The notes under the pieces: generated by a model | Told to the model about the DNA's origin: nothing | The model's database searches: none | What the model saw: the letters and a program-made list of their open reading frames with translations, nothing else | Shown here: positions 1 to 49,108 of the stretch, one piece after another | Position numbering within the stretch: position 1 is the stretch's first letter | Layout of the letters: each line of letters opens with the position of its first letter | Program-made: the position numbers and the translations under genes | Origin: Isoetes taiwanensis | Taxonomy: Eukaryota > Streptophyta > Lycopodiopsida > Isoetales > Isoetaceae | Direction of reading: 5' to 3' | NCBI GenBank assembly: GCA_021234155.1 | Contig: JAJEKV010000010.1 | Location: forward strand, 19,877,418 to 19,941,417 | Length of the DNA: 64,000 nucleotides

Positions 1-630
1 ATAGAGAAAACACATTCGAGTGACAACTTGAGAATAGGCACAATAGGCACATCTTGAGATACAGTTTCCCCAACCGGCCAATTTCACCTATCTCGTCATG
101 TACACAAAGGGACGAACTGGGCGCCCGGCCCAATTTGGTCGTGATTGTAGAAGAACTGTAAAGAAGGCAGAGACTCGGCGCCCGCCCAATTTAGCTGCCA
201 TAGAGAAAACACAGTCGAGTGACAACTTCAGGGCCGCCCAATTTGTCTCTTTGTGTAGATGAAACTGAACGAGGTAGACACTAAAAGAACCCCTTTTGAT
301 TGAAGGGACGAGGGTTGGACTGCACACCTGAGTGGAATTATCATTGAGCTACCAAAACAAATACAATCGAGCATTGGAAGGGCCTGAATGCAGATAAGGG
401 CGGACTTATCAGGGTAGTTCTTGGGGACAAACAAACGACCATGGAGAAAACAGGAGGCACACAATTCCTGCACACCAATTTCAGGAAAAGGAAGGACTGC
501 ATCGAAACTTAGAGTTTATGAACATTTATAAATGTGACAGTAGATGTCATAGTCCAAACTTCAAAAATGTGACCGAACTACCACCTCGGTGAATGATGAG
601 GAGTAAATCAACAGGCGCCATCGAAAAGGC

Positions 631-738
631 GTGAATGAAGAGGTGTGAATGATCAGGCGTGAATGAAGAGGTGTGAATGAACAGGCGTGCTTGAAGAGGT
701 GTGAATGGACACCCGCGAATGAAAAGGCGTGAATGATT
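631..738. repeat. 14-bp tandem repeat (8 units)
   Basis: Eight degenerate copies of a 14-bp unit close to GTGAATGAAGAGGT start at 631, 645, 659, 673, 687, 701, 715 and 729, an exact 14-bp period. It lies upstream of the putative leader exon of the H3-tail/ParB gene. Long minus-strand reading frames across it come from the repeat, not from a gene. Confidence 0.8.
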
Positions 739-844
739 ACATCCCTTCAGATTAAATTTGCAGCAATTACACATCGAGCTATGACGAATAAAACAGAGGA
801 GCAGCACAAACCTTTGGAGATTTCGTGGCCATGAGTATGAAGCG

Positions 845-1056
845 TTGAAGATGTTCTCATCCCTATCCTGTCGCCGCACTACACTCCCGAACCAGCTGTC
901 GGCTTCGGATCGAGCACTTGGCGCCTTGTGTTTCTCGGCCGCTTGCCGCCATCCTGTTGGCGCCTTCCTTTGTTCACTGTCCTATCGCCTGGGAACCCCT
1001 GTACACCAAGGAATCTTAGCAGTTGATGGCATCTCGCCCCACCACAGGAGGCAAAG
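845..1056 (+). other. Putative 5' leader exon of the 1464-5363 gene
   Basis: This GC-rich stretch ends in a good donor (AAAG|GTAAGC at 1057). A matching acceptor (TTCTGCAG) ends at 1455, nine bases before the ATG at 1464. Splicing would give a leader exon followed by the exon carrying the ATG. The open frame in the leader does not join the main frame, so it would be untranslated. The 5' end is unknown. The intron (1057-1455) holds two full palindromic repeats and a roughly 50-bp direct duplication (1255-1305 and 1378-1428). Confidence 0.35.
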
Positions 1057-1463
1057 GTAAGCTGGACTACTATCTTTCTTAATATAGACTTGAGCGCCTG
1101 CCTGATTGAGTATGCCATATCATAAACCTCGGGGTATCCTACTTTTGCTTTGAGGAAATTGGGCTGTGGCTGACAAATTAACCTCTTCTAAATGCCTCAC
1201 TGGTCCCCACAAATGCATATCTGTGTGTAGAACTTCATAGGGCACCCAATCGCCCAATTTGGCCTCTATGATGCAACCATCTCTTCAGCCCCAAGTCTCA
1301 CCATGAATTGAGTGGGTGTAAATTGGGCGGGCGCCCAATTTGGTGTGCATAGGGATCCGGCCAAATTGGGCGGGCGCCCAATTTGGCCTCTATGATGCAA
1401 CCGTCTCTTCAGCCCCAAGTCTCGCAAGTTCTAACACTACTTTTTCGTTCTGCAGGAATTATT

Positions 1464-4400
1464 ATGGCGCGAACAAAGCAGACTGCTCGGGTTCCTGGTC
1501 CCGCACCCAAATTTGCAGAGGCTATTGCAAGAGAGGATGCAAGAACAGAAGAAGAGAAAGATCTGTTTGCTGGCATCCAGGTAGTGCCCAATGAAGTTTT
1601 GATGGTTGCTGAGGAATGGTACTGGTGCATAGAGATAGGGAATATTCATCCTGGGTCCCAGACAAACCACCTCAAGGATCTTTTGCTTTTCTTTGGCAAG
1701 AAGGGGACAGGAAAAATGAACTCGGCGGGTATCGTCATCGACATGGAGGTCTCACCTGAGAACAATCATGACTTCCTCATCGATGTTGAAGACACCGTAG
1801 ATCGGGCTTTCGTCCGTTATAAGGTTCCACTTTCTGAGCCATGTATGATGAACGCAAGTATAAAGGAAAGCTCACAATCTTGCGGTCATAGAGGATGGGC
1901 ACTAGACTCATATGAAAGTTTAGGGCGCTCAGGCATCAAATCAAGAACTGATATCTTGGATGGCTACTACGCTGTCAGGTAGTGGATATTAGAACACAAA
2001 CAGAACAGGTCGAAAGCACTGTTCACGGAGTATCAAGGCAAAAACCAACCTAAAGTATACGATACTAAGTGGCTTAAGTCTAGATACAAGAAGAGTGACA
2101 CAGCACAAGCGCAGGCGCCAGCGCCCATGGAGACCGAGACAGCAGCAAAGAAGGCGAGGACACCTGCTACATCTATTCCCCGTAAAGCTGCCCCTAAACT
2201 TGTATTGGAAAACATGTCGAGAACAGCAAGGTCGCCCCAGGTGAGTGCAGAAGAGGACCAGTCGTCTGAAGAGGAACCCTCTAAGCGCAGAGGAAGACAT
2301 TTAGCTGGTCCGTCCAAGAGGCGCAAGCGGGACATCTCACCACAGAGCCCAAACAGTTCTGAGAGGGAGTCTTTATCTGCTTCTTCATCTGAAGAACGGG
2401 AGACTAGCCGGCAGATCGTGCAGTTCACTCAATCTGGTGGCGACGTCACACAGGAGAGCAGACATGAGTTGTCACAGAGCGCCATTGCAAGCATCAAGCA
2501 CAGGTAGAGAATCTACCCTCTGGGGGTGGGCTTCGAGATTGAAGCCGATGTGTTCAAGATGCATAAAGCCCCGGCAAATATGACTTGTAGGGTCATAAGT
2601 CCAGAGCACTTGGACACTCTCTATGAATCGTTTATCAGCCATCAGATGCACCCTCCCTGTGCTGATGTCGTGCCGTTCGATCCACAGAAGGGCGAGCAAT
2701 TAAGTGGAAGAAGGCAGAGGACCTGCAAAATGCAGAATTTTGGATTGTAAATGGCAACCATACGACCACGATTGCTCAACTGCTTGTCACACAAGCTCTG
2801 GCATGGCTTCCTGAAAGGAAGCACTTGGCAGAACTAATATTCTTTTTCTATGCCAAAAGGAAATGCCGAAGTCTGGCGGGACATCTCCAAAGAATCGAAA
2901 GCACGTTAAATTGTCACCCGGAGAATAATGATATAACAAAGAAGACTATACACGAATAAATATTCTTCGAAGAAATTCAGCAGCTTCGAAACCAGTGGGC
3001 ATTCTACGGGAAGCCTAAGAAGGGCAAACGCGGGCACTCCGTCGGTGGAGCTTATTCTGTGAGTGCACTACCACCATTATTTTTGACAGTTCGTGCTATC
3101 CACCAGTGCCAAATTGAAGCCGCCCAATTTCGGCTATTGACACTGTTCAAAGTGGTGGCCGCCCAATTTCCCTGAACGAGTGCAAATTGGGCGCCCGCCC
3201 TATTTGGGACCCGTTTAGGGAAATTGGGCGCCCGCCCAGTTTCAGCTCAGTGTCGAATGGTCTGAAATTGGGCGGGCGCCCAATTTGGGACTGCTAGTGC
3301 ACGCAAATTAAGATGATGTGTATGGGCCTTATCTAATGCCCTCTGTGTCATGCAGGATTGGAAAGCTGTCGCGCTGCAAACAATTAAAGAGTCAACTATG
3401 CGTGACTACGACTACTTTGTATATCTTGATAACGAATCGTGGTCAATGTGCACCGAAGTTGCCCAGTTATTTTACGAAGACCGGTTGAAGGATGAGAAGG
3501 GAGAAAGAATTGAAGTGAAAGATAGGCTTAGACTTTTCACCAACAATTCCTGTCGCCCATTAAAGTCCATGCATCCTCTAGATCTACAAAGGCTGATGAA
3601 GGAGATCAAGGATGGCACCACATTCCTGAAGGGAAGCAAGGATTATACTGGAAGACGTACCATGAAAGTCAGAGCCTTAGAGCTGAAGAAGATTGGAACA
3701 ATGGAGCGGGCCCTTGTCAGATACATGAAGGATGTGAAGAAACTTCCTTTTCAAGACATGGCTGCCTTGAGGCAAGCTCATCCGATATTCACAGAGAATC
3801 TGATGCTTATGTTCGCGAGTAGTATCAGTGGATGGGCATAAGGACGCAAAGAGATGGAGAAGGAAAGCTTTCCGGAGTCCCTCTACAGCAAAGTAGATGA
3901 ATATCTTCTTGGGCCAGTTGAGGAGGGTGGCAAACCGTTCAAGTGTTTCCATGTTAGTCCGCGAGGTTTGTGCGTGGATGTGGTGAACACTTTTGCCCGC
4001 TTCATTGGATGCGACTTCAGATATACAAAGAAATGGCCAAAGGAAGATTATGAAAAATTCCTTGACCAGCTTAGCACGATGACGGACCAGCAGCTTTACT
4101 GGATAGCTATATTTATTACGCCGGACCGCCTCAATGAGTGCCTATCCGCCATGAAGACAATAGACGGTGGCAGCCGTGTTTGGGTTGGTTCCTACCAGGA
4201 CCCCCCGGCCAGAACTGCTTCTACCTCTAGAGTTCGAGAGTTGCAATGTCTTGTCCTGCTAATGTATGTTGCCAGAGACGCAGCGGCTCTGCCATCTGTA
4301 CAGGAAATAAATATTTGCTTCGCCAATTCCGACCATCCTAAGCAATATGCTAAGTTTCCCAAGCATTTGCGAGAAAAACAGGACATCGAAAAGAATTTGC

Positions 4401-5363
4401 CTGACCATGAGTGTGCAGCAGGTATGCATTTCAAATTGGGCGCCCGCCCAATTTTGTTGTTGACTATGAATGTTTTTAACATTTGTTTTCCCTGAAGCTT
4501 ATTGGCTGTATCGTCCTTGGTGCGACAAGGGTGCAGCAGGTGGGGGAGGAGTACTCGTGCAGAATCAGTTGGAAAGTAGGACGTGCACCTATCTAGTACA
4601 GAAGTTGATGTTGGAAGGTTGCACTGTTCTCGACTTCTTTTCCGGTGGTGCTTTTAGCCGAGCTGCAGTGTGCGAGGGCTATAAAACATTGTCTTTTGAG
4701 ACAGATGAGAAGCTGGAAATTAAGCTTGTACAGATATTCAAGCAACTCGATGTCATGTTAGACGAGAAAAAATCAAGAGCTCGGGCACTACAAAAGATCA
4801 AAGAGGGAAAGAAAAAGCCCTCTACTTCTAAAAATGTTCCTCAGCCTCAGCTTCCTGCTCCTGAGACATCTTGTCCGTTCTCCTCTACAACCATAAACGA
4901 AGTGCAATCCATTCTGAGACAGGACAAGAGCTCGATTCAGATAGAGTTTAAAAAGGCAGCGGCCCTTGGCTCTCAGGATTTTGAACTATTTAGGAGAAGA
5001 AAAGAGAACATCAACGCACTGGCAGGGACGGCACTGGTGAATACTCAGGACATGATTGAGGCGACCTCAAAGTTCGAGGAAGAGGTTGCTAGGGATCCAG
5101 AGTCTGTCGTTGTCATGGAAACACAGGAAGGGGACAATCAGGATGGAGAGGATGTGGTCCCCAACACATTGAACAGTCAAGATGTAGAGGAAGAGGTCGC
5201 GAACACAGAAGACAATCAGGGTGCAGATGAGGAGAATGAGGAACTGGGGTCCGAAGATTTTAGGCAAAGAATGGAAAAGATCAAAGAGGCAGCACAACAC
5301 CCTCCGCCCCAGCATGAAGAACCCAGCAAGGATCATTCAGAAGAGGTGCCTCCAGACAAATGA
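1464..5363 (+). pseudogene. H3-tail-bearing ParB-like / N6-N4 methyltransferase-like fusion gene (broken copy)
   Basis: Three exons are visible: 1464-3058, 3356-4421 and 4498-5363, with introns GTGAGT...TGCAG (3059-3355) and GTATGC...GAAG (4422-4497). The product starts MARTKQTARVPGPAPKF, so residues 2-9 equal the histone H3 N-terminus. A Ser/Glu/Arg-rich basic segment with PSKRRKRD (about 2270-2330) looks like a nuclear signal. A ParB-like region follows: RVISPEHLDTLYESF, then ADVVPFDPQ, then WIVNGNHTTTIAQ. The C-terminal half has the order of beta-class N6/N4 DNA methyltransferases and ends in a SAM-site-like GCTVLDFFSGGAFSRAAV, but DPPY is absent (VDVVNTFA stands near its place). An acidic Glu/Asp tail closes the protein at TGA. 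Breaks: TAG 1980, TAG 2505, -1 shift near 2700, TAA 2957, TAA 3839. Domain calls are motif readings by eye; function is inferred. Confidence 0.7.
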
Positions 5364-5789
5364 GCGATTTAAAAATATGGGAAATATGTTATGAACATTT
5401 GTAATTACTTCTTTTTCAGAAATGATAATGTTGCCCTCATTTCCTTGTCTTAATATTCTCTAGTTTACTTTCCTAACCAAATTGGGCGGGTGCCCAATTT
5501 GGTTACCCGTAGAAACTAAAACCTTTAATTTTATTTATTTCATGACCAATCTTGTTGCTGTTAACTGGAGACCTTCGCTATCCTCGGCCAGAAATTGGGA
5601 GGGCGCCCAATTTACTAGCAGAGGAAACGTCATCAAACGTGAAGTGAAGTGGAGGTGCAGAAACAGTGTAGATCAAAGAGCAGACCCTCAGGAATTACTC
5701 AGGTACGTTACATTATATAATATTGACTATGCTTATTACATCCTTACATCATTATTATATCCTTGTCAGGTACAGTAGTCTACAACGAT

Positions 5790-6032
5790 TCACTCGTCGT
5801 CAACGCCTGCCAAGGCGATGCCATTCAGCTCAAAGATCTGCTGATCAGGAAGCCAATACAGGTGGATCACAACACGAGTGAGCTTTCTGCAAGCACTCGC
5901 AGGTCCATCTGCTTTGGACTGGAGCCATGGATCAAGACTAACACCATTCATATAGCACTGGTTAATATCGTTGTAGCTCAAGTAGCACTTGAAGGATCGG
6001 ATGTTCTCTGGACGATCTGGCAAGGAAGCCAT
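5790..6032 (-). CDS. Small protein, unknown family, paralog of 6338-6589
   Basis: An 80-residue frame starts at an ATG (MASLPDRPENIRSFKCY) and ends with TGA. I do not recognise the family. Coding status rests on its similarity to the neighbouring small ORF on the same strand. Both share C-x8-QC, nine residues, W, then 18-19 residues, IHL-x-W, Q five residues on, and AGV near the end. There is no signal peptide or membrane segment. A TATA-like CTATAAAAG lies only about 30 bp before the ATG, so the leader would be very short. The gene faces the 3' end of the ParB/methyltransferase gene. Confidence 0.5.
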   Translation of the reverse strand: MASLPDRPENIRSFKCYLSYNDINQCYMNGVSLDPWLQSKADGPASACRKLTRVVIHLYWLPDQQIFELNGIALAGVDDE

Positions 6033-6055
6033 GAGAGATGAATGCAGTGGAGCTG

Positions 6056-6064
6056 CTTTTATAG
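6056..6064 (-). promoter_or_regulatory. TATA box of the 5790-6032 ORF
   Basis: The minus strand reads CTATAAAAG about 30 bp upstream of the ATG at 6032. Spacing is tight but compatible with a plant core promoter. Confidence 0.4.
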
Positions 6065-6337
6065 TGGTGAAAAATTATTGATGTCAATTATTGGCGTACA
6101 TTCTAGCGCCAGTATTGACCATATACGGTATACTTGTACAGCCACGCGAAATTGGGCGGGCGCCCAATTTCGCGTACCATTCACTATGCACATTCAAGGG
6201 GAACCATAATTGGGCAAAGTGGGCGGGCGCCCAATTTCACGGGACATGTTGGACAAGTTGCACATATAGAAGACAAGTTGTACTAATACTTTATCTCATA
6301 GATGATTACAGTCTGATTACAACAAGATGACAAGCGT

Positions 6338-6589
6338 TCATTTAGGGGGACTCTTCCGAGTCATTTTCCCGGGCACCCCAGCGATCTTCTCTATCATGTA
6401 CATTTGATGCTCTCTATTCCATATCAGATGGATGATAACATCGAACGGATCAGGATAATGGCGAGGATTTAGAGCGACTGTGGTCATCCAGTCTTCCATG
6501 GGTATCTCTCGCTCGCGGCACTGCTTGAAGTTTTCGTGATTTATCTTGCAGGTGATGGAATCATGTTCAGGACCAGAATGAGACCACAT
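6338..6589 (-). CDS. Small protein, unknown family, paralog of 5790-6032
   Basis: An 83-residue frame starts at the ATG at 6589 (MWSHSGPEHDSITCK) and ends at 6338. It aligns with the 5790-6032 product: C-x8-QC, nine residues, W, 18 residues, IHL-x-W and W-x4-Q keep almost the same spacing, while most other positions differ. Two diverged copies with conserved Cys, Trp and His positions suggest selection on a small folded domain. Unlike its neighbour it ends in a basic KMTRKSPPK tail. A TATA box lies 50 bp upstream. Two palindromic repeats separate the two genes. No function can be assigned. Confidence 0.5.
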   Translation of the reverse strand: MWSHSGPEHDSITCKINHENFKQCREREIPMEDWMTTVALNPRHYPDPFDVIIHLIWNREHQMYMIEKIAGVPGKMTRKSPPK

Positions 6590-6632
6590 GGCTAGACGAA
6601 GGCCAAATTTGATGGACAAAATTGGTTTGAGA

Positions 6633-6643
6633 TATATTTATAC
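6633..6643 (-). promoter_or_regulatory. TATA box of the 6338-6589 ORF
   Basis: The minus strand reads GTATAAATATA about 50 bp upstream of the ATG at 6589, leaving room for a leader of about 20 nt. Confidence 0.5.
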
Positions 6644-7690
6644 CCACCATAATTATTGATGGTATTGTACGCAAAGATTATTGGATATACATACTACTCG
6701 TATATACACAAGGCTCCCAAAAAAGAATCAATACCATTTTTTCACAACAATTTTTACATGAAACCACTAAAATAAAGTGATATCACTAAGTGGGTTAATA
6801 TGTTGAATAACTGCTGCCAGTTAAATAGCATGGTTCCTACTTATGATTTGTTATTCTAGTTTATTAGCATTGTTCACCTTCATAGTTATTTATGGTAGTT
6901 TGTTTCTCTAGTTGATAATAGTGCTTTATTACTGTGTTTTGGATATGTGATACAGTTTATAATATAGACCTTAAACCACTAACGAAATTTGTTTTAATTG
7001 AATATGCATCTAGTGTGGTTTCGAGAAAAAGTTGTCTATGTCTTTTCATAGGAATCAATGTTCTTCCATGCAACAAAATGTGCCAATTTTTTATGAAAAT
7101 ATTATAGGTTAAATGGTAATGGTTTTGCCATCAAAATAGTAAGGGCTTGCATCTTTAAATTGGGACAAATCAATATTGCTTTGGAAATGTAATTACTACA
7201 GATTTACTAAATATAAGAAGGCATACTCAACATGGAAATCATTGCCACTATGTATACATAATGATTTTGAGTTTCTCCATCAAACATTCAGTGGTTTTGT
7301 TATACGAAATTGGTATTGGTTTCTATAACAAATCAAGAAATGCTCATTGTACATCCAACTATTGTTTTAGAACAAAAGGAGATCATCTACATGCAAGTTT
7401 AGTTAGCATAATGTTTTTTGTTTATTCAAGCAGAATAAACATTGATGATCGATTTAGTAGGTTCAAGGTGCCCAGGGATTTGAACCCTAATATTTCCATT
7501 TTTCCCAAGCATAAGCATAATGACTCGTCACTCCCAACTCTTATTAGTTTGCATTCTAGTGCATTTAACTAAGAATCATTTAGCAAAGAACCGCTACTAG
7601 AATGTTATTATGCAGGAATTAGGAATTGGCAAATGATATAGCAGAGCTATCTTGCAATGATTTCTTGCAATGATTTCTCTCAAGACAGCC
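6644..7690. other. AT-rich intergenic DNA
   Basis: No recognisable gene. An open frame at 7261-7572 (+) has no recognisable motif and no paralog here. I see no terminal repeats. Confidence 0.5.
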
Positions 7691-7997
7691 GATGAGGAAA
7701 AAGCAAAGGAACAAGGCATTTGGCTGTGGCAGGACTATGGCAAGTTTCTGGAACCAATTTAGCAATGTCTTTCAAGGGAACAGCCACAAATGCTTAATAA
7801 ATAAAGTCAATCACAGATTTGAACCCCTGCAAACAGAACATAGAGCTTTTAATCTATTTGGGAGTTGTGAGCTAGAAATATCAAATGTAAACGATGCAGA
7901 GACCTTGGGACGTGCCAAAACTGCTGCAGACCATAGCTGTGTGTTCGCAGATGCTGACATTAGGATTACAGGGCTGCAAGTTACAGTTATTCGCCAT

Positions 7998-8200
7998 ACT
8001 TCTGTGCAAGAAGAAGAATAATATGCAAATAAAATGGTTATTTTGGAAGCAAAGAGAGACATGTAAAAATCTAATAGAGTACAAGGGTGCTTAACTACAC
8101 CGTCTGTGCAAGAAGCAGAATAACATGCAAATAAAATAGTTCTCTTGGAAGCAGAGGGAGATATGTGAAAATCTAACAGAGTACAAGCAAGGGTGCTTAT
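7998..8200. repeat. Tandem duplication, about 95-bp unit
   Basis: The segment starting TGTGCAAGAAG(A/C)AGAATAA and ending in AAGGGTGCTTA occurs twice (about 8001-8094 and 8104-8200) at roughly 85-90 % identity by eye. Neither copy resembles a known RNA gene. Confidence 0.8.
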
Positions 8201-8404
8201 CTATCACCGCCTATACAGTGTTGGATCCTGGAAATCTCAAACTCAGTTCATTCCACAAAGAAAACTTTAAGTCAAATGAAAGATTAAGGCAGCAAAGAAC
8301 TTCACATGTGTAGCTCGCTGGTTTATGGCATAGCCGGATCAAAGAGTAGATCTGTAAATAATGAAGTTGGGCTTCCAGAAGAAAACCTTCAAATCATCAA
8401 GGAT

Positions 8405-8842
8405 TCACAGACCAGAGTAGTTCCCTACATTCAAATTGGACAGAGCAGTTAATCGACTATTAAACTCAAGGGAAACGAAAGAAAGCACGAGCATGCCTTG
8501 GGTCTGCCGGAAGACTCTGGTGTTCATTGCCAGAGACAGCCGCAAGCTGAGCGCCTCATCTGCCATTGCCATCGCAAACGTTTCATTGAATCTTTCCATC
8601 CAGCAAGTTCCTGTATTTCAAACATAACAGTTCTGTTACTCGATCTAAAGGAAAAATCAAGAGTAAAAGGAAGGAGGAACAAAATACTTGTGCGTAGAGT
8701 ATGCCCACCAGATGGTAACTGCCATAGCCATGGCTCCCATAGCCATGGCGTTGAAGAAGCCGGCCGTAGCCCGAAGCGCGCGGGAAATCATCATATGATC
8801 CATAAACCTCTTATTCAACGCCTCATTTGCGGTTTCCCGCAA
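8405..8842 (-). other. Two possible minus-strand exons, unknown product
   Basis: One open block (8657-8842) reads NKRFMDHMMISRALRATAGF followed by an Ala/Met-rich hydrophobic run that could be a membrane segment. A second (8405-8612) follows a good acceptor (GAAATACAG at about 8613) and reads MERFNETFAMAMADEALSLR. They could be exons of one gene, but the donor is weak (GTATTT) and I recognise neither part. Confidence 0.22.
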
Positions 8843-8890
8843 TGTTTTTCATTTTTTCTATTTAATTTCTATCCTTATCCCTATCCCTAT

Positions 8891-9420
8891 CTTCTTCAAA
8901 TACAAGACTATCAACACTATGTATACATCAATACAAACGTACCAGGTTTTGTTTTGGTAGGTTTGTGTGGGACTCTACAACCCATATGATTGTAGAATAA
9001 TCTAGTATCACTTCAAATCTCAGGGGAACTTTCTCTCAATATATGATTTATTCCACCAATCTTTGTGGAGTTGTGTCTTATAAACACAAGACTTCCCACC
9101 TTTGTGGGGATCATCAGTATACGACGTTGGATTTGAGAATATGTTGTAAGGCTAAGCTAGTGTGTTCAATGTTAAGTGTAAAATTTTATTGTCTTCTTCA
9201 AATAAACGAGTATGAAGAATATGTACGCATCAATATAATCATATAATGTTTTATTTTGATAGGTTTTTGTGGAAATCTACAATCCATACGATTGTAGAAT
9301 AACCTACTATCAGTTCAAATTTTATGAGAACTTTCTCTCGATATATGATTCATTCCACTTATCTTTGTGGAGTTGTATCCTATAGCACAAGACTCCCTAC
9401 CTTTGTGGGGATCATCGGTC
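8891..9420. repeat. Two-copy tandem repeat, 302-bp period
   Basis: Copy 1 (about 8891-9117) and copy 2 (about 9193-9420) share CTTCTTCAAA, GATTGTAGAATAA, ACTTTCTCTC, ATATATGATT and CTTTGTGGAGTTGT in the same order. Both end at GTGGGGATCATC. Divergence is moderate. Confidence 0.75.
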
Positions 9421-9775
9421 AACTATTTCTTTGCACATTTTTGCAACGTTGTCATCTAAGCCTCGTGCATAACATATCCACACATGATTGTTATGAAGTG
9501 TTTGTCAATACATGACATGCATTAGAATGTTATGCTAATATTGCTCTATTAAGATGTTCATGGGCATGGTTTCTAGTTGTGGACATATTGCAATTGACTT
9601 CACATTTTCAAGTAATGTCACCCAAAAGATTTATCTTAATAAGCATGAAGGAATGTTAGTTTGTGGGAATGCACAACTTTAATTCTCAAAAACTAAATAA
9701 ACGTGTAAAGTGGTGCCTCACAATATCTAATGCCTCTTACTGACGATAAAAATCATCCTATTCTATTCTTTCGAG

Positions 9776-11080
9776 ATGGCTCGCAACAAGCTAGACATCG
9801 TGCGACTGGACATGCAAGGAAGGTACGAAACGAAGGTTCGACTGTGCAGTTGCATCCAGAAGGCCAGAGTTACCCCAGGATACATGTTTGAGGGGTGGAC
9901 AATTGATCAAACATTCGGATACATGCTATGTATAGACTAGCACGCTAGCCAAGGAGTGCCTTGGGTGGAAGGTCGAATAGTTTCCCATATCAAGCCGAGT
10001 TTGGTTATAGATGGTCATAATAATTGGTCCCTAAAGTAAAAGGGGTGCTCTGGACTCATGCATGAAGTCAAAATTGCATTTCGAGCTCACTAGAGAGGCT
10101 TAACTATGGGAACATGCCATTTCCCCGTCGTGCCCTTACGTCAGAAGGGGGAAAATTTCGTGGTTAGGACATCCGTGCAATGAATGTCCATCTTCTCTTT
10201 TTAGAGACATTTCATAGGATATGAGCTATCATTTGAACGGTGGGATTAGGAGATGACGCGCTTTTGATGCCCTGACACCTAAACCCTACTAAATCATTAG
10301 GGTTTAGGTTTTGGCAGCCTTCGCTGCCTCGGAAGTGGTTAAGAACTTGCGTGCAGGGTTTTCTCAAGGGTACGAAGAGAGAGCCCAAGAGAGAGAACAA
10401 AAAAACCCTCCTTGGGCACTACTTTCAACCTTGCCCCCTCGCGATGGCTCGCAACAAGCTAGGTATCGTGCGACTAGACATGCAAGGAAGGCACGAAACG
10501 AAGGTTCAACTGTGTAGAGGCTTAACTGTGGGAACACGCCATTTTCCCGTCGTGCCCTTACGTCAGAAAGGGAAAAAAATGGGGGTTAGCACATCTGTGC
10601 AATGGATGTCCATTTTTTTCTTTTTGGAAACGTTTGATGGGACATGAGCTACCACCTGGACGGTGGGATTAGGAAATGGTGCAGTTTTGGTGCCCTGACA
10701 CCTAAACCCTACTTAATTTGTAGGGTTTAGGTTTTGGCAGGCTTTCGTGCCTCGGAAGTGGTCAAGAGCTTGCGTGCAAGGTTTTATTGAAGGTCCAAAG
10801 AGAAAGCCCAGGAGAGAGAACAAAAAAAACCCTCATTGGGCACCGATTTCGAACTTGCCCCGGCGCGATGGCTCGTAGTAAGCTAGACATCATCCGACTG
10901 GACATGCAGGAAACGATGGTTCGACTGTGCAGTTGCATCTAGAAGGATGGAGTTACCTCAGGACACATGTGCCGGATTGCTAAGTACATGCTATGTCTAG
11001 ACTAGCACACTAGCTAAGGAGTGCATTAGGTGGAAGGTCGAATAGTTTTCGATATCAAGTCGAGTTTGGTTTGATTGTGC
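9776..11080 (+). repeat. Three diverged copies of a telo-box hairpin repeat
   Basis: Copies begin with ATGGCTCG at 9776, 10444 and 10868. Copy 2 lacks about 240 bp found in copy 1. The first ATG opens MARNKLDIVRLDMQ, a short frame that soon stops. Copies 1 and 2 contain a perfect 12-bp inverted repeat, ACCTAAACCCTA / TAGGGTTTAGGT, with a 9-bp loop (10277-10309 and 10700-10732). AAACCCTA is the plant telo-box, known from promoters of translation-related genes. The repeat may derive from the 5' region of such a gene or from a non-autonomous element; no terminal repeats were found. Confidence 0.7.
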
Positions 11081-12843
11081 AGTTGCATCCAACTCTCAAA
11101 TTCATATGTATACAACACAAGTTTTGGAATTGCAAGTTTGTGCAAGGGAATAGTTGGCTCATTGTTTACATTAGCATAAGCAACTCGATATTGCGAGAAG
11201 GGTTAGGCAATTACATATTGTGTGGCGCCATTTTACATGCTTGTCTATGTTTGTTGGGATTAAAGTAAGTTTATGAATTCCATAAGACACAAAGTAAATA
11301 GTGGTTCTCCCTAATAGATCAATGCTAAACACAACCTAGATATTTCCAAATACAAAAAACTAGCCCTAACAATCCATTTTTAGCATTATACTTTTGTGAA
11401 TTTGAACTGTAAATCCATTGTTTGTGTCATGCAAACAAATAATACGAGTTTTCATTCAGAAAAGAATCATTGAAACTATCATTAGAGTAGGAATTATTAT
11501 GTGCAAGCAACTTTTAAATCCCTCCCCAAACCCATTCTACCCCATTCTACCCTTTGCTCCAAGCCTCTACTGCTAGTTGTCCCCAAGTTTTCACCACACC
11601 ATGCCTACTTAACACTCAAAATGGCCACTCAAATAGTCAACTATATATACAACTTGATCGAGGGGCACCTGCAGATGATCTAACCGAATTTGTGAAACTG
11701 AATATAAAAATATGGTAAGGGATCTAGTTGAATTTAGATAATTAATTGTACAAATATGGTAGGGGATTTAGAGGAATTTATAGAAAAAGTGTATGTATGG
11801 TAGAGGGTGTATCTAGAGTTTCGAAAAAAAATCCTATAAGGGTTTTTTTTCTAGTTTTTTTTTTTACTATATAAGGGTCGTTTTCTTTAACTCCGTGCAT
11901 GCACATGCCATATGGGCTTTACATTAGCTACATCCTCTGGTTACAAACTGCAGGGTGCAAAAATGGGAATTAGTTATTAAATAGCATGGTTCAAAAGCAA
12001 TAATTGACGTTTTAGAGTAGTTTAAGTGCTTAAATGCAGATGTAATATTCCATACTACATTGCAGTATGAGAAAGGACACAAGGTTTTTGAACTTGTGAA
12101 CTCTCTAGAAGGCCTTGTACCTAAGGCCGGTCAACTAAATTTTGCTTCCTGGTGGTAGGTAATGTGCTTTATTTTTTGCCCCAACTATTCTTTTCTATTC
12201 TAAAGTATTGGATCAGGCTTGCAAATTTTGTTGACAATGTATGGCTGTTATATGTCAAAAAATATGGACTTTTGAATGATCGAAGAAAAAAAGATATTGT
12301 TTTTATTCATGGTTCTTGAACATAGTAAACTTCTTCAAATTTTGCCATTATTCATCTAGGAACTATAACAAACCATTACTATTTTTTATAAGCTGGCAAT
12401 AGTTTTTATAAACCACAATGGTACACAAGTCTTATAATAAAACCATCTCATTAACTATGACCAGTTTTAGCAAACCATTGTAACATTAGAACTAGCATTA
12501 TTAACCATGTTCTAAGCCACTATAAGTTTTGACAGACCACTATAGGATGTGGTTTTCTTCTATCAAATAAATTGCCGTATAAAAAACCACATCTACCATG
12601 ATTTCTAGATGATTTGTTAATGCTTTTATATGGTAGTTCATTTTTGGGGGCCTTGTGATACACCCAATAATGCTGCTACAGTGGTCATCAATAATTCCAT
12701 GGCTATAAATATAGCCGCATTCGAGGGCACATCACATTCCTTTGCCATGTCTCGCCGTCTTCAGAGGCCCCATCTTGACACCCTCACTTGCCTTATGGCA
12801 GAAAGATAATAGATAGTAATAGATAATATTAAACATGGACGTT
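11081..12843. other. AT-rich intergenic DNA
   Basis: No gene or RNA gene recognised. Short poly-T and poly-A runs are frequent, and 11690-11800 has loosely repeated TATGGTA(G/A)GGG.. segments. Confidence 0.5.
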
Positions 12844-13527
12844 TCAGTCAATATCCAGTTCCACCGCAATTAGATCCCCCAGATCGAACTCTGTTATGGC
12901 TTGTCTGCTATACAGATCCAGCCAGCCATCCAATTCTCCCATTGGATAGGGAGTGTTGAGGATGAGTTTGGTTACCAAACCCACACGCTCCCTTTTTTCC
13001 TTCTTGTAAAGCTTCTTAAATATGGACCGGAACCTGTTGTGCAGCCAAACATCGTCCATTTTCAGCAACCTCTTCAGAGCTCCTGCCCTGTAAATATGGC
13101 GTTTCAAGGAAATCAAACAGCCTTCCAGCTCTACCCTGCTGAGGTGATCCGGCTCATCACCATCCTTCATCAACTCTCCACGACGAAGGAGCTTCATCAG
13201 TTGGTGTCTCATTTCTTCTGTGCCATTTTCGTTTATCTCGTTCTGCACCTCAAGCTGAAGCTGATTCGCATGAGCTAATATTGGCTGGGAGATATGGCAC
13301 TGCATTTCGCTCATTGTGAATCCATCGCTGCGCCTAGTTCGGACCATTCTGACTGTCCCGACTATGAATCTACACTGTGCAGATTTGCGAATGCCGGTTG
13401 GTGCGGCGAGACCATGTCCAGTGAAGGCGCTTGGGCGGGAAACAAACTCGGATATCACTTCTTTGGCATAGTAGATAAAGGGCCTGCCAACTCACCTACC
13501 TGCACGCATTTCGAAATTTTGCATCAT
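12844..13527 (-). pseudogene. Hypothetical protein gene with one premature TGA
   Basis: A frame of about 227 codons runs from ATGATG at 13527 to a stop at 12844, interrupted only by TGA at 13492-13494. The frame downstream of that stop alone has 204 codons. The TGA could come from CGA (Arg) by C-to-T change at a CpG. The protein is Lys/Arg-rich with a helical middle (EMRHQLMKLLRRGELMK) and later NRFRSIFKKLYKKEKRERVG. An A/T-rich ATATAAGGG on the minus strand near 13540 may be the TATA box, placing the ATG close to the start site. I do not recognise the family. It could still be translated from a later start. Confidence 0.5.
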
Positions 13528-14346
13528 TCCACCAAATAAAACCCTTATATTCTAAAAAATCGGGTCCATTTGGGAGTCATATGGACTTAGGCAAAGTCCA
13601 CAATTAATGAAATTATGCTTTATTCAGCATATGCAGATATTAAAAGATAAGTAAGTGCATTCTAATTATGTGGTATTACTAACAATGCTTGTTTGAACAA
13701 ACTGGGCTTGAAATTTTAAAGGGATATTATTGTCACCTTATATCATCATCTCATTGTCGCCGCCACCACCACGGGAGTTCTATGGTTAAAAGTATGCCAC
13801 CAGCTACAATTACATGTGTCTTTAATTATCTCCCCCCAGTAAGGACCTAGAAGACTTAACTGAGAGTTGAAAAATAGGCCTACGACTTTTTTGCAAGAAA
13901 TATCTTGTATGAACAAACTTGTATGAATAAACCATCTTTTTTTGCATTAATGCACTTTTATTCAGTATATTTGTTTGCCACCTACTCTTGTATTAGGTAT
14001 AGGTAACATGGCAATTTCAATGAATATAGAGGGTAAAATCTTTCAAATTTCAAACATGCTCTAATGCAATCTCTATCAATAGATTGTCTTCCCATTGTTT
14101 GCTTCATTTAGACCCAACCCCCTAGGGAAGTTTCAACAAAAACATTATCGTGTTGAGAGTAATCGTGGCATTTGAATTGTACTGTTTTTGTTTTTATGTA
14201 AAGAATGATTTTTGACATTGAAATATTTTTGGAATTGTACAGCTTTTCTTTTGCAAAAGAATGATTTTTGACATTGAAAAAAATAGGATTTCAATTGGCA
14301 ATCCAAAGGGTCAAACAAAATGGTTGACAAAGTGTATGTGTGTATG
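13528..14346. other. Intergenic DNA downstream of the laccase pseudogene
   Basis: No gene recognised. The segment AAAGAATGATTTTTGACATT occurs twice in tandem (about 14200 and 14258). Confidence 0.5.
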
Positions 14347-31129: not shown

Positions 31130-31805
31130 GGGCCTAGGTGGCATTTGGAGCCCACGTGGCATGTCTAAGCCATCCTGGCATGTTGGAGCCCACGTGGCAC
31201 GTTCGAGCCCACGTGTCATGTTGGAGCGTAGGTGGCATGTTGGAGCCTAGGTGGCATGTTGGAGCCACCTTGGCATGTTGGAGCCTAGGTGGCATGTTGG
31301 AGCCACCTTGGCATGTTGGAGCCTGCGTGGCATGTTGAAGCCTTGGTGGCATGATGGAGCCTAGGTGGCATATTTGAGCCACCTTGGCATGCTTGAGCCT
31401 AGGTGGCACGTTGGAGCCAACTTGGCATGTTGGAGCCTTTGTGGCATGTTGGAGCTCACGTGGCATGTTGGAGCCGGTGGCATGTTGGAGCCTAGGTGGC
31501 ATGCTGGGTGGCATGTTGGAGCCTGGGTGGCATGTTGGAGCGTAGGTGGCATGTTGGAGCCTAGGTGGCATGTTGGAGCCACCTTGGCATGTTGGAGCCT
31601 AGGTGGCATGTTGGAGCCACCTTGACATGTTGGAGCCTGGGTGGCATGTTGGAGCGTAGGTGGCATGTTGGAGCCTAGGTGGCATGTTAGAGCTCACGTG
31701 GCATGTTGGAGCCCAGGTTGCATGTTACAGCCTAGGTGGCATGCTAGGTGGCATGTTGGAGCCCACGTGGCATGTTGGAGCGTAGGTGGCGTGTTGGAGC
31801 CTAGG
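31130..31805 (+). repeat. 19-bp satellite, part 1
   Basis: About 35 units of GGTGGCATGTTGGAGCCTA with variants at the CCTAGG core (CCCACG, CCACCT, CTCACG). The array stops at CTAGG (31801-31805), the target duplication of the gypsy element, and resumes at 42980 in the same phase. Confidence 0.95.
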
Positions 31806-34224
31806 TGTTGAAGGCTTTTTTGGCAAAACCTCCAACCTAATGGTTTAGAACCTCCAGGTTGCTTAAGGCAACCACTCTGAATCACCAAAACACGGAAAAG
31901 TCAATGAAATTTCAAGATCGATCGCTTTCCCTGAAGCAAAAAAAATGGTCTGACCATAAACTTGTGCCATTTAAAATCAAATCAAGCAAATCAATTGATT
32001 TTTTGATAGAGATCTTCTTAACAGATGTGGGAATCAGTGTTCAAAAGTCTAGATAGAGCTGAGATAAGCAAGGTTCTCAAAATCACACTTATTTGGGTCA
32101 AAAATTGGTCAATACCCAAAGAAAAACAAGCTATTTTTGCTTGATTGAAGATGGAACAAGTTTTTTTTTTTTGTTTTGGAAATTTGAGATATCTCGATGG
32201 TGGTGTCTAGATTGAAGGCAACTTAAAAATTGCGGGGAAATTAACAACCTAAAGGGTAGAATTTGATTAAAATCTCCTATCACCGACCGCAAGAACCCGA
32301 GAGCAACTTTACCTAATATGAAATCTAATTGGCTTTTTGTGTTTTTTCAAGTGTATCAGTTCGGAAATACCCTCTAGTTATAGTGCATAAAAATTTCAAA
32401 CTAAATTATTTTTAGTTTTCTGAAAATCAAGGATTAAACTCAAGAACAATCACCACACCTAATTTTTTCTAAGGTCGATTTTCATTCAAGAAGCTATTCA
32501 AAAGATCAACATCAATTTCCCCCCGAAGCCTAATGGTCTCGGGAAAACAATCAAACAGATCAAATTGTCAATAATCTCAAAAGTGGTCGATAATCTCAAT
32601 AGCCCGTCAATTCTTCCGAATTTGGAGGCTAGAGGAGCAAATGCAAAGATAGGAATCGATCAATCCGGCTCGGAAAAGCTTCAAGTCGACGTTCTTCACG
32701 ATACAACCCCGAGAAAACAATGCAAGATCTCAATCCATCTTAAACGGCCCTGTTTGGTTCAAATCTTGGCAAATTCTCGTTTGAAATTCAAATTTTGTTT
32801 GTTTATGAGTCGGTATGGATGCGTGTAGGTGAATGGAGGGTGCGAGAGCTATGATTAAGCGGTGTAATTCCAACCAATTTTCCGGATCTTGGCCTTCATC
32901 GAAAATTAGGGTTCTTGAAAAATAGTCCAAATATCCCACAGGCATGTTTAGAAAAAGCAGACTAGTGTATAAAAGGAATTTTACCGCAATTCCTTCCGAA
33001 TAAACGTGCCATTATGAAGGGGGAACCGGCCCGTGCCCGGCCCCCATGCAACCGGCCCGTGCCCGGCCCCCATGCCCCATGGTGCCACGTGGAGGGTGTG
33101 GATTGGTGGATGAGCTGGCAGGGGGGGAGGTAGAAAATGCTAGGTGGGGTAGAATAGGAAATTTTTTTTAATTTTTTATAGAAAGGCACGAATCTCAAGG
33201 CAATAATCCAAAGGCCAAGATAAAGGATATTAGCATATTCTCCCATCTCAATTGGAATCTTTTGCTAGGAATAATTTTTTGCATAGCTTAACCATAGGAT
33301 GTGAAATATGGCAAAAAAAGATGACTAGGCAATTGTGATGGCATATGACATGGCAATGGTGATGACTAGGCAAATGACATGGCAATGTATCTTGACTCAA
33401 TTTTTGTCTAGCCAAAAACTTTTTCAACTTATGGATGTGGATGACACGTGTATGGCATATATGATGATGAGGAGGATGATGTGCAAATGACATGGCACTC
33501 CCAAGTGGCAATATTACATAGAATCATAATCAACTTGAAAAATGGAAGCCCTTTAGCCATTTTTAATTTTTGAACTTGGGGATGGAGGGAGTATGATGTA
33601 AGTGATGATGAGGAATGATGGAGATGTGAGGTGGCTTCAAGGTTATACGTGGCACAATGCCACCTTTATGCATAACTTTTGCAAATTTCTTGACCATTTT
33701 TCTTTTTGGAAGCTTATCATGGAAATGAATGTATGGAGTTATGGAAGAGATGAGAGTGAAGCTTTTTTTTGGCTAGACAAAAATGTTGTCAATTGGAAAA
33801 CAAGGTTGATTGAGGATGTACCAACTTGGAAATCAAGGAAAGAAGGTGGTATGGGGTGAAATAATGGTATAGGAATTTGCCTCAATATGAACTTGATCTA
33901 GAGTTATTTTGCACATACCATGGAACTCTTGGGGGTCTTCAAAACCTTCTTATGTCTTCAAAGTAAATGTTTGTGTCCTTTGCTCTCTTGTTTGCTCAAA
34001 TATGATGACTTGACTTTTTCTTGCTCCTTGTGACCATTTAATTTGATCTAATGAAATAGCTTCCATGAATGTCCTTCCTTAGTCTTCATCAAAAAAATTC
34101 TTCAATGATCCACGAAACAAAATAATCCTTCAAGAGTGTAATCAGCTTAAAATCAAAGCATTGGCAGACTTGTCTTCTTCTTGTGTTGTACAATTTCCTC
34201 TTTGCCGCCACAAAATGTGGCAAA
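31806..34224 (-). repeat. 3' LTR of the gypsy element
   Basis: Aligns over its whole length with 40591-42979. Differences are clustered: a duplicated CCGGCCCGTGCCCGGCCCCC block near 33030, and small exchanges near 32090, 32210, 34110 and 34165. A stem CCACA/TGTGG sits at the outer end. Confidence 0.92.
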
Positions 34225-34930: not shown

Positions 34931-35732
34931 GAAAATATTCAACCTCTTGAAGACAACATCCCGGATTTGCTAAACCCCGTTAAAAGCTACACATGACATT
35001 TTAAGCAAAGAATAAAGTCAGAATAATACTTAATCAATCACAAAGAACATACTGAGAACAAAATGTTTTTGATGTTTTTGATGTTTTATCTTTTATAATT
35101 TTTCTCAAAGTTGAATTTATGTCTAAACACACTTAAATCCTAATTTAAGTTAAGGATGCATCTTTGATTATGCAAACAAACATAGGGCAACATGTTGTTG
35201 CCAATACCTCTTCAAATGTAGAATGTTGATAGGATTTGGCGACTTATAGTTATCTTCCACAGATCTTAACCAAAGATGAATCTCGGCCCTGCTACACCTA
35301 TAACTTCAAAAAGGACCCTCCCATAAATTCTCAAATTTGCTTGCAACCTTCTCCTTGCTTTATTCCATTTCAAAACCAATTCCCCTTCCTTGAATAATCC
35401 TTGGAGCTTGTGAGCAGCTTTAAAAGCTGCAACATCCTTGGCCTTTTAATCATAACAAGCATTTTTTCGCTTCATATATCTGTGCTCATCCAATTGCATC
35501 AGCCTTACACACCTTTCCCTCACGCCTTCTTCCATTTTCAGATTGATTCTATGAGCCAACCTTAATGAAGGTAACTCGAGCTCTATAGGAACCACGATTC
35601 CACACCATAAACCAAGCTAAATGGAGTATGATTGGTAGAATTTTTTCTTGTAGTTCTATAAGCCCACAATGCATCATAAAGTTTTTCATGCCAATCTCTT
35701 TTTGACAAACTAATGGTTTTTGCAATATGGAC

Positions 35733-36270
35733 TTAAGAACCTTGTTTGTTGATTCCGCTTGGCCATTTCCCCCGTGGATAGTAGGCTGAACTCTTTACAT
35801 GCTTAACCTTAAGGATCTCTAGGAGTGTAGCAATAACTTGATTTACAAACTGAGTTCCTCTGTCAGATATAATTTTAAAAGGTATCCCAAACCTGCTGCA
35901 AATATTTTCATGCAGGAACCTAGCAGTTGTAAAAGCATTTGCTTCCCTAAGAGGTACAGCTTCTGCCCATTTAGTGAAGTAATCTGTTGCAACCAAGATA
36001 TATTGATGTTGAGCAGATGAAGGGGGATCTAAGGGTCCTATAAAATCCAAACCCCAAACTTGGAATGGTCCAGTGATACAATGGCGTGAAAGTGGTGCCG
36101 GTTGCAATATTCTTTTTCCAAAAATCTGCACTTATGACAACTTTTAATTTTATTATAACAATCTTTAAACAAGGTTGGCCAAAAATACCCGACCTCATGA
36201 TCTTCTTTGTTTGTAGTATCTACAAAGATAATGGCCTCCACAAATGCCTTCATGGCATGCCTCTATGATT
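35733..36270 (-). pseudogene. Integrase of the gypsy element
   Basis: Starts with an HHCC zinc-binding region (GYFWPTLFKDCYNKIKSCHKC). The core has the first Asp in VWGLDFIGPLDPP, then YFTKWAEAVPLREANA, and the second Asp in IISDRGTQFVN. Integrase inserts the cDNA into chromatin. The frame shifts around 36140 and the C-terminal end after YYPRGKW is lost. Confidence 0.88.
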
Positions 36271-36389
36271 AATTCAGCCTCACCCTTGTCAACACACCGA
36301 AAGCAAAGACACCCTTCTTTATCCACCTTGCATAGCACACCTTCAATGAGCCTAAAAGTTTTACACTTTTCCTTGAACCTCCTCCGTGG

Positions 36390-37700
36390 TTGCTATTCAG
36401 ATCTTTTGGTATCTCAAAGATGCTCCAAAAAATTCTTAATGTCAACCCGCCAATCAATCATCATCTCACGCCAAAAAGCTACTATGTTAGTTGTATTTTC
36501 CTCATTCAAACCTTCTTGATCTTCATACTTAAACATCATATTAGGCAAATAAGCACTAGGATCTTCAAGAACTTTAATTACTTTAATGTCAATATCATAA
36601 TTTTGTACCTTACAAGCCCATCTCGCATAACTTTGCCTTTGGTAAATTTTTGCAAACAATAGTGTCAATGGGTTTTGCTTCATGAAAACCTGGGTATGAT
36701 AAGCGGTAAGTGTCCATGCTTTTCCAATAAGAACATTAGTGCAAAGAAGACTTTTTTTCTAATCTTTGATATCTAAGTTCTCAGGTCGGACAGCATTTTG
36801 CTTGAAAAGGCTATAATTCCATGTTCCTCAGAAAGGGCTATACCTATGGCTCTCTTGGTCACACTTATATATATGAAAGTTTTTGTAAGATCGGGAGGTT
36901 TTAAAATAGTAGGATTGCAAAGGGTTTCTATAATTTCCTCAAAAGCTCTCTGGCAAACATCATCCCATTTTATAAAAATATACTTACTCTCTTCCTTGGA
37001 GTATTTACCAACCCTGGTCAACCTGGCTATAGGACAAATAATGTGTGATAAGTGAGGCACATATATCCTAAGAAAACTTGTCATCCCCATAAAACCTTTA
37101 ACCTTTTTGAGGGTTTCTGGTGGTGTCAACTTCTTCAAGGCTTCCAATTTCCTGCAGCCACCCGGATCCCTTTGAGTTGATATCTCATGTCCAAGAAGAT
37201 CCCCTTTAGAACAGAAGAAAACACATTTCTTAGGATTTAGGCTCACTCCACTTCCCTGCATAATGAACATATTTTTGTTAGCAAACCGAAATGATCTCTC
37301 GATAAATGTGCCTAAACACAAATCATCCGTAAAACACCCCCAAGTAATTGACAGCATCTCCTTGAAAATAGTGTCCATAGCTCTCTCGAAAAGTGGGAGC
37401 ATTCATTAGTCCAAAAGGCATTTTTTTTCATTGCAAAATTACCCCAAGGTGTAATGAAAGCAGTCTTTGGTTGATCCTCCTCCTTTATATCGATTTGATT
37501 GAAACCCGAAAAACCATCCAAGAATGAAAACATTTCCTTACTCCTTTCACTGCATATAGCACTTCCTCTAAAAAAGGTAGAGGATAACAGTCCTTAATTG
37601 TGGCTTTGTTGAGCTCCCTATAATCAATGCATATCCTAATTGTCTTATTCTTTTTTCTCAAATGTGTACTATACAAGATAACCATTCGGATTCATAATTT
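36390..37700 (-). pseudogene. Reverse transcriptase and RNase H of the gypsy element
   Basis: The first RT block is RICIDYRELNKATIKDCYPLP (37690-37600). The polymerase site is TDD in CFTDDLCLGTF near 37320. VKGFMGMTSFLRIYVPHLS leads to the connection domain and to RNase H (FIYISVTKRAIGIALSEEH) up to about 36400. At least two frameshifts (near 37530 and 37400) and stops break it. RT and RNase H make the element's cDNA in a cytoplasmic particle. Confidence 0.88.
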
Positions 37701-47965: not shown

Positions 47966-49108
47966 ACATGCCACCTAGGCTCAAGCGTGCCAAGGTGGCT
48001 CAAACATGCCACCTAGGCTCCAACATGCCACGTAGGCTCCAACATGCCACCTAGGCTCCAACATGCCACCCACGCCCAACATGCCACGGGCTCCAACATG
48101 CCACTTACCAACATGCCACCCGGGCCAAGCCGCACACGTGAGCTCCAACATGCCACCTAGGCTCCACCATGCCAAGGTGGCTCCAACATGCCACCTAGGC
48201 TCAAGCGTGCCAAGGTGGCTTAAACATGCCACCTAGGCTCCAATGTGCCACCTTGGCTCCAACATGCCACCTAGGCTCCAACATGCCACCCACGCCCAAC
48301 ATGCCACGTGGGCTCCAACATGGCACCTAGCATGCCACCTAGGCTCCAACATGCCACCTTGGCTCCAACATGCCACGTGAGCTCCAACATGCCAAGTTGG
48401 CTCCAACATGCCACCTAGGCTCCACCATGCCAAGGTGGCTCAATTATGCCACCTAGGCTCCAACATCCCACCTAGGCTTCAACATGCCAAGTAGGCTCCA
48501 ACATGCCAACTAGGCTCCAACATGCCTCGGGAGCTCTAGCATGCCACCTAGGCTCCAACGTGCCACCTTGGCTCCAACATGCCACGGGCTCCAACATGCC
48601 ACCCTAGAATGCCACCTAGGCTCCAACATGCCACCGGGCTCCAACATGCCACGTGAGCTCCAACATGCCAAGTTGGCTCCAACGTGCCACCTAGGCTCAA
48701 GCATGCCAAGGTGGCTCAAACATGCCACCTAGGCTCCAACATGCCACCGGCTCCAACATGCCAAGGTGGCTCCAACATGCCATTATCCGCCAAGCCGCTG
48801 CCAAGGTGGCTAAAACATGCCACCTAGGCTCCAACATGCCCACGGAGTCCAACATGCCACCTAGGCACCAACATGCCACATAGGCTCCAACATGCCGCCT
48901 AGGCTCCAACATGCCACGAGGCTCCAACATGCCAACTAGGCTCCAACATGCCTCGCGGAGCTCTAGCATGCCACCTAGGCTCCAACGTGCCACCTAGGCT
49001 CCAACATGCCACCTAGGCTCCAACATGCCAAGGTGCCTCCAACATGCCACCTAGGCTCATGCCAAGGCGTGCCAAGGTGGCTCAAACATGCCACCTAGGC
49101 TCCAACGT
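47966..49108 (-). repeat. 19-bp satellite, inverted arm
   Basis: About 60 units of the same satellite in the opposite orientation (CCACCTAGGCTCCAACATG), mirroring 42980-45507 across the core. Confidence 0.95.

Follow-up and report, generated by a model that had tools for sequence, protein, structure and literature searches.

Few countermeasures to silencing encoded by transposable elements (TEs) are, to our knowledge, known. Influenza NS1 is a histone mimic, and VANC belongs to the VANDAL elements of Arabidopsis; we know of no histone H3 tail or methyltransferase motif in VANC. In excerpt, VANC is described as a TE-encoded protein whose targets are often tandem repeats and which induces loss of DNA methylation throughout TEs (PMC5735166). 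Here we analyse a stretch of 64,000 nucleotides from the lycophyte Isoetes taiwanensis (contig JAJEKV010000010.1; hereafter the window), in which one accessory gene of a high-copy, autonomous DNA transposon survives in decayed form. This gene is unusual for an H3-like peptide (MARTKQTAR), a methyltransferase-like part and the 22-bp palindromes that accompany it. Like histone mimics, it is an otherwise unrelated parasite protein that includes a short H3-tail copy; it differs from them in being encoded by a transposon, and in that elsewhere in this genome the tail is joined to an H3 fold in other reading frames. The excerpted account of VANDAL/VANC offers a second parallel, a TE-encoded accessory protein with sequence targets, often tandem repeats (PMC5735166), from which the Isoetes element, likened by description only, departs in its long, strict palindromes.

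The gene lies within an element that, by homology to other copies, begins ~3,470 bp to the left of the window and ends at position 13,620, with the target-site duplication (TSD) TATT on either side. Searching the genome (1,658,258,908 bases in 1,110 sequences), we found at least 150 places matching exon 3 of the gene, with 150 of 1,854 first-look candidates scored. We fetched 20 copies, and 4 kb more to the left for four of these and for the window. Both ends were read in five elements (window, L011, L013, L023 and L027), and all five have a pair of terminal inverted repeats (TIRs) and a 4-bp TSD (TATT in the window; ATTG, ATAT, TACT and ATGA in the others), and the latter four are 11.7–12.7 kb long. 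The TIR of subfamily A, which includes the window copy, is AAGCAYAATTTCATTAATTRTGGAC; its inverted ends read AAGCACAATTTCATTAATTATGGAC on the left and, reversed, AAGCATAATTTCATTAATTGTGGAC on the right, with slight variation in the other elements. Homology to the copies begins at ~528 of L029, the locus just outside the window, enters the window and reaches 6709 in L011 and L013. On the minus strand, the left gene forms an open frame of 1,004 codons in L033 and L027 combined, and a scan of 972 residues against Pfam matched PF25273 (DUF7869, E 2.3e-39), which we take to be a transposase domain; a literature search for 'DUF7869' found no paper. A Helitron-like 3' end, considered for a hairpin near the right end, was dropped when the left end gave a TIR pair and TSDs.

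The first-pass annotation of this locus had described a spliced gene with exons at 1464–3058, 3356–4421 and 4498–5363. These exons are borne out by GT/AG junctions, their splice borders are conserved, and the MARTKQTAR peptide, a basic stretch, the VLDFFSGGAFSRAA block and an acidic tail ending in TGA are all present. That annotation overlooked an upstream exon (exon 0), the surrounding transposon and the broken state of the copy, which has in-frame stops at 1980, 2505, 2957 and 3839, a frameshift near 2690–2702 and a nested insertion. In 12 clade-A copies, the four stop positions most often read CAG (7/12), GAG (11/12), GAA (9/12) and GAA (8/12); the remaining copies have other codons, gaps or missing sequence there, with TAG at 1980 in one. 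Because these positions are mostly sense codons in the clade-A copies, the stops reflect decay and not a code in which TAR specifies Gln, and an alternative genetic code (TAA/TAG as Gln, giving a readable table-6 frame) is ruled out.

The start of the H3-like tail is visible in 15 of 21 sequences (the 20 copies and the window) and was not seen in six. Eight of these 15 read exactly MARTKQTAR, two, both of subfamily C, read MARTKSTAR, and five are altered or damaged. Host histone H3 begins MARTKQTARKSTGGKAP (L062, L063). Each of the eight codons after Met occurs in at least two synonymous forms across the copies; since the peptide is kept across subfamilies despite this variation, the match is not due to chance. 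The H3 N-terminal peptide, the feature of an H3 tail mimic, is thus present and conserved in the transposon family, and comparison of the H3 core with five elements gave chance matches only (E 1.2 or worse).

Joining exon 0 to position 1456 yields MASRPTTGGKGIIMARTKQTAR.... Exon 0 occurs in all three subfamilies with the pattern M[AE][SK]RP..., reading MASRPTTGGK in A, MEKRPLKEGK, MESRPLKEGK or MESRPVKGGK in B and MESRPTK in C. It is in frame with the MARTK piece in 13 of 13 copies in which both were found, a comparison that left out L015. The acceptor AG is intact in 11 of these and mutated in L014 and L023, where the spacing was imposed; in L024 the tail is present and exon 0 was not recognised. 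As this conserved exon is in frame, the H3-like motif probably lies near, and not at, the N-terminus, starting at residue 11–15. The H3-like N-terminus of the first-pass annotation is found in the spliced gene itself and not in a separate one, displaced to the inside of the protein by the upstream exon. At −3, a base that counts in start-codon context, the start of exon 0 has T in subfamilies A and B, which leaves a second start at the conserved Met of MARTKQTAR possible, but G in C. Separately, the joined N-terminus in subfamily B (L022 1253–1283, L023 1255–1285) reads ...GKAPMARTKQTAR or ...GGKGPMARTKQTAR, an echo of H3 GGKAP (residues 12–16) placed ahead of residues 1–8 that may be chance.

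The copies sort into three subfamilies, A, B and C. Between these, the proportion of synonymous differences (pS) is 0.72–0.88, at or near saturation, compared with 0.075–0.306 for nonsynonymous differences (pN). The ratio of nonsynonymous to synonymous rates (dN/dS; Nei–Gojobori, on open exon pieces of single copies) is 0.066 for exon 2 within B, 0.059 for exon 3 between B and C and 0.051 for the transposase between A and C; the other between-subfamily pairs were saturated and gave no ratio. By these values, strong purifying selection acts on the protein of the main gene. Compared with the subfamily C elements L027 and L028, L023 is 92% and 90% identical at its right end but only about 68–69% identical in exons 2–3; L024 is a 94% relative of L023. 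Such elements are mosaic, probably through recombination.

The element also contains near-identical 22-bp palindromes. The pattern AAATTGGGCG(SS)CGCCCAATTT, with up to three mismatches, occurs at 20, 18, 33 and 17 sites in L011, L013, L023 and L027, and at none in the fetched flanks of these four elements (1.2–2.3 kb each), in 20 shuffles of one element or in the window outside the element. Coding bases account for 28,531 of 49,508 bp (58%) and hold none of the 88 palindromes (binomial p 1.5e-33). The genome has 2,161 exact sites against none for the reversed control, and the first ~50 of these listed fall into kilobase-scale, element-like clusters. Both arms are retained in 13 tabulated sequences covering the three subfamilies. 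All 13 palindromes of the window element are non-coding: three lie between the left gene and exon 0, two, three and one in introns 0, 1 and 2, and four between the main gene and the small gene s2.

In the C-terminal part of the protein, VLDFFSGGAFSRAA is similar to motif I of the N6/N4 DNA methyltransferases, and searches of four libraries converge on this METHYLTRANSFERASE-like block of exon 3, all with weak matches: PHROG 498 DNA methyltransferase (E 0.0077), NCBIfam RsmD (E 0.043), the N6-adenine methylase RsrI as best match in PDB (E 0.11) and, in one of four members, the C-terminal end of PF01555 N6_N4_Mtase (E 0.15). In the comparison with RsrI, the block is one residue short in the GxG loop. 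A phage N6 methyltransferase profile was built from six proteins, four of them ParB fusions represented by their C-terminal parts; of these proteins only that of phage WO was checked against Pfam. In hhalign, exon-3 segments of the three subfamilies matched this profile at E 1.1e-5, 1.5e-4 and 1.4e-4, the best of 40 random segments from exons 1 and 2 and the transposase reaching E 0.081. Unrelated matches of equal weakness were Peptidase_M76 (0.043), PigL_N (0.046) and, in exon 3, Mce4_CUP1 (0.098). The catalytic motif IV, [DNS]PP[YFWH], is absent from the proteins scanned (L028 exon 1 and L022 exons 2 and 3). The C-terminal part is thus probably derived from a methyltransferase and non-catalytic. 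The proposed fusion of an H3-tail-like peptide with a methyltransferase-like half holds as far as a nuclear spliced gene and a weak motif I, and lacks DPPY. An AlphaFold model of 107 residues of the window exon 3, made with no alignment, reached a mean predicted local distance difference test (pLDDT) of 47 and was not used.

The ParB domain named in the first-pass annotation is unsupported: no match was found in Pfam, PHROGs, NCBIfam or PDB, and a phage ParB profile gave E 0.86 against the 'ParB-like' block in hhalign and no alignment there in hmmsearch. The power of this test is limited: eight phage ParB domains recognise one another at E 4e-17 to 5e-45, but for P1 ParB, which is a genuine though distant ParB, the match was no better than E 0.011–0.031. 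No relative was confirmed among 37 and 137 candidate stretches in viral contigs, 128 candidates in genome contigs included none, and of 7,994 candidates scored in a protein database against exons 2 and 3 of L022, none reached E ≤ 10.

The MARTKQTAR peptide extends beyond this transposon family. A search with a degenerate DNA pattern finds it encoded exactly at 1,888 genomic places (904 on one strand, 984 on the other; reversed control 0), far more than we would expect for H3 genes. The window's own family is included, its codons appearing in four of ~100 listed places, one of them copy L018. From the listed places we fetched 20 others, a non-random set picked for differing codons and located through the peptide: L062 and L063 are histone H3 genes, and the remaining 18 are other reading frames. 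These 18 begin MARTKQTAR, extend to Lys9 in 15 cases and then run into sequence that is unrelated and for the most part charged; several of the frames are broken. In 19 of the 20 places, the 60 codons upstream include an in-frame stop.

Reading three of these places ~5–6 kb further revealed H3-fold sequence downstream in each (host H3 core as tblastn query, E 8e-24, 2.6e-19 and 1.4e-18; 52–64% identity). All three frames (C63, C35 and C33) start MARTKQTARK and run into charged sequence and then a divergent H3 fold. In C63 (L059 and L066) the frame is open from MARTK to the fold over 388 amino acids (Pfam Histone, E 2.4e-21); in C35 (L055 and L065) and C33 (L054 and L067) it is interrupted. A fourth place, L048, fetched to 1.2 kb only and starting MARTKQTARI, contains H3-fold sequence too (E 2e-8). 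Reverse-transcriptase or protease pieces follow two of the three places: an RVT_1 piece at E 1.1e-6 (29.0 bits, with a cut-off of 29.6), neighboured by a reverse-transcriptase-like-looking piece with no match, and an RVP_2 aspartyl protease piece at E 1.3e-4, above its cut-off. The third is followed by protease- and gag-like frames recognised by eye only. Such loci appear to be retroelements that encode an H3-like protein. As these retroelement-like loci have an H3 fold and the window transposon has none, H3 tails seem to be carried by two or more mutually unrelated types of mobile element in this genome, with common descent of the tail, repeated capture and convergence as candidate routes; this suggests that transposons of I. 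taiwanensis imitate histones.

For the window family, we tentatively propose, with slightly less than even confidence, that the main protein is a sequence-specific chromatin or anti-silencing factor of the transposon, following a logic like that of VANC. The protein, or a partner encoded by the element, would coat the element via the palindromes as putative binding sites, and the non-catalytic methyltransferase-like part might contribute to DNA or cofactor binding. The H3-like segment would engage host machinery that reads or writes H3 Lys4: by recruiting or titrating H3-tail readers, demethylases or methyltransferases, it could allow the element to evade silencing. A leaky second start at the Met of MARTKQTAR would produce a form with a free H3-like N-terminus.

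Several observations weigh against this proposal. Exon 0 sets ARTKQTAR at residue 11–15, which argues against a simple free H3 N-terminus, and readers that need a free N-terminus, such as PHD fingers, would not bind an internal ARTKQTAR. The subfamily C tail is ARTKSTAR, and the transposon protein has no Lys9. The methyltransferase match consists of a single short motif under curated cut-offs; a profile of exons 2 and 3 ranked ClpB chains first in PDB (E 0.026) with RsrI at only 1.2, and exon 2 alone matched the bacterial PH domain PF23492 below that profile's cut-off (E 0.0014). Because tandem arrays include some of the palindromes, the sites are not independent. The palindrome includes ATTGG/CCAAT and GCCCAATTT, which, we presume, resemble plant promoter boxes, and the palindromes could as well belong with a host factor, with the transposase or with one of the element's small proteins.

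Among the alternatives, the main protein could be a transposition co-factor, a partner of the transposase that binds target sites or ends, as is TnpA of Spm/CACTA; the palindromes would then be assembly sites and the H3-like segment a tether to chromatin. The gene does lie within an element with its own transposase, which is about equally constrained. Its palindromes are scattered through introns and intergenic DNA, however, and not concentrated at the ends, and we consider a co-factor role unlikely.

Similarly doubtful, in our estimate, is that MARTKQTAR is a relic of ancient capture, or a product of convergence, that has no chromatin function. Only eight residues match, what follows is unlike H3 and exon 0 precedes them, all as expected of a relic. 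Against this, the peptide is kept despite synonymous saturation, with the caveat that whole-protein identity is high and the subfamilies number only three, and the same tail, mostly extending to Lys9, heads 18 of the 20 other places fetched (which the peptide itself had found).

We give still less credence to the palindromes being host transcription-factor sites that drive the promoters of the element, with the main protein in an unrelated role. The factors in question would presumably be of the CCAAT/NF-Y or TCP 'site II'-like type, given that ATTGG and CCAAT lie within the palindrome and that the sites are near the element's genes. A 5-bp box would not need a strict 22-bp, two-arm palindrome kept across synonymously saturated subfamilies, even within introns and 3' regions, and the genome sites cluster like elements at the kilobase scale, at least among the first ~50 of 2,161 listed.

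Finally, that a host gene domesticated a phage ParB–methyltransferase module in a plant nucleus, as first suggested, is very improbable: the order of parts and the motif I block, by profile, do recall phage ParB–N6 adenine methyltransferase fusions such as ADW80149 of Wolbachia phage WO, but the Isoetes protein differs from these in having neither a ParB match nor DPPY and in being encoded by a eukaryotic spliced transposon gene, no relative was confirmed in viral or prokaryotic contigs, and domestication is not supported because the gene belongs to a dispersed transposon with its own transposase and at least 150 exon 3 matches, and is decayed in the window.

The anti-silencing role proposed for the main protein can be set in a wider view, in which the DNA transposon and the retroelements each took the host H3 tail and H3 mimicry is an anti-silencing strategy combined with element-specific palindromes; taken whole, we regard this as rather unlikely. 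The DNA transposon would have set ARTK[Q/S]TAR in a DNA-targeting pseudoenzyme derived from a methyltransferase, and the retroelements would encode a diverged form of H3 in which a long charged linker joins the tail ARTKQTARK to the H3 fold. Chromatin at Lys4 and Lys9 would then be rewritten by H3 tails that act as decoys or recruiters, or by H3 that TEs encode and that is deposited on their DNA. We found no publication on histones encoded by transposons or retrotransposons, in a search too small to call H3-tail transposons unpublished. The conserved H3-tail peptide and the palindromes in every complete element examined make for a concrete hypothesis that is simply testable (site, peptide, readers). 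If it were true at the scale of 1,888 places, histone mimicry by genomic parasites would be unusually widespread and would confound the annotation of histone genes.

Table 1. Coordinates of the transposon, its genes and its palindromes in the window.
Feature	Position	Strand	Remarks
Left and middle part of the DUF7869 DNA transposon	1..6706	+	Homology to L011, L013, L023, L027
Transposon left end, transposase gene, left TIR	about -3470 to -1, locus L029		Just outside the window
Palindrome AAATTGGGCGSSCGCCCAATTT, imperfect copy	171..192
Exon 0	1026..1056	+	MASRPTTGGK + G; donor GTAAGC
Palindromes, exact, intron 0	1320..1341; 1363..1384
Exon 1	1456..3058	+	GIIMARTKQTAR, N-terminal conserved domain, basic linker, 'ParB-like' block
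MARTKQTAR	1464..1490	+	Histone H3 residues 1-8 plus Met
'ParB-like' block	2588..2930	+	Most conserved part of the protein, pN 0.075-0.113
Three palindromes, intron 1	3184-3205; 3221-3242; 3265-3286
Exon 2	3356..4421	+	Stop at 3839
Palindrome, exact, intron 2	4433..4454
Exon 3	4498..5363	+	Methyltransferase motif-I-like block, charged and acidic C-terminus, TGA at 5361-5363
VLDFFSGGAFSRAA	about 4626..4667	+	Exon 3; like motif I (N6/N4 DNA methyltransferases)
Two palindromes, 3' side of main gene	5479-5500; 5592-5613
Small protein gene s1, ~73 amino acids	5814..6032	-	tblastn
Two palindromes between small genes	6149-6170; 6216-6237
Small protein gene s2, ~82 amino acids	6344..6589	-	tblastn
Nested insertion, CACTA-like by its ends CACAAGGC...GCCTTGTG	6707..12657		3-bp duplication ATA; foreign to the element
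Small gene s3	about 12747-12797		Also in the right part of L013
Right-end transposon gene, open in the window copy	12847..13314	-	3' part of a 215-codon open frame, 12844-13491
Right TIR	13593..13620	-	TSD TATT adjoins at 13621-13624

The right part of the element contains three small genes (~73–82 amino acids) and one gene of at least 156 codons (Table 1). The small gene s1 is related to s3 by tblastn, and the likeness of s2 was judged by eye; s1, s2 and a minus-strand reading of the s3 region had no match in Pfam, s3 itself lying outside that scan.

The transposon is perhaps Sola-like. In the excerpted description of the Sola superfamily, its elements have a 4-bp TSD and a DDD transposase (PMC10741241). 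The 4-bp TSD agrees with this; the transposase itself was matched to PF25273 DUF7869 alone. Further likenesses given in the same excerpt are TIRs, a large size (some elements exceed 15 kb) and occurrence in the moss Physcomitrella; accessory genes and palindromes, which distinguish the Isoetes element, are not mentioned in that portion of the description (PMC10741241).

Elsewhere in the window, arrays of a 19-bp minisatellite (CTAGGTGGCATGTTGGAGC and variants) occupy 31132–31807, 42980–45505 and 47965–49058, one of them with ~133 copies. Remnants resembling Gypsy integrase/reverse transcriptase and LINE reverse transcriptase, recognised by eye, lie at 35486–37402 (minus strand) and about 59787–63213 (plus strand).

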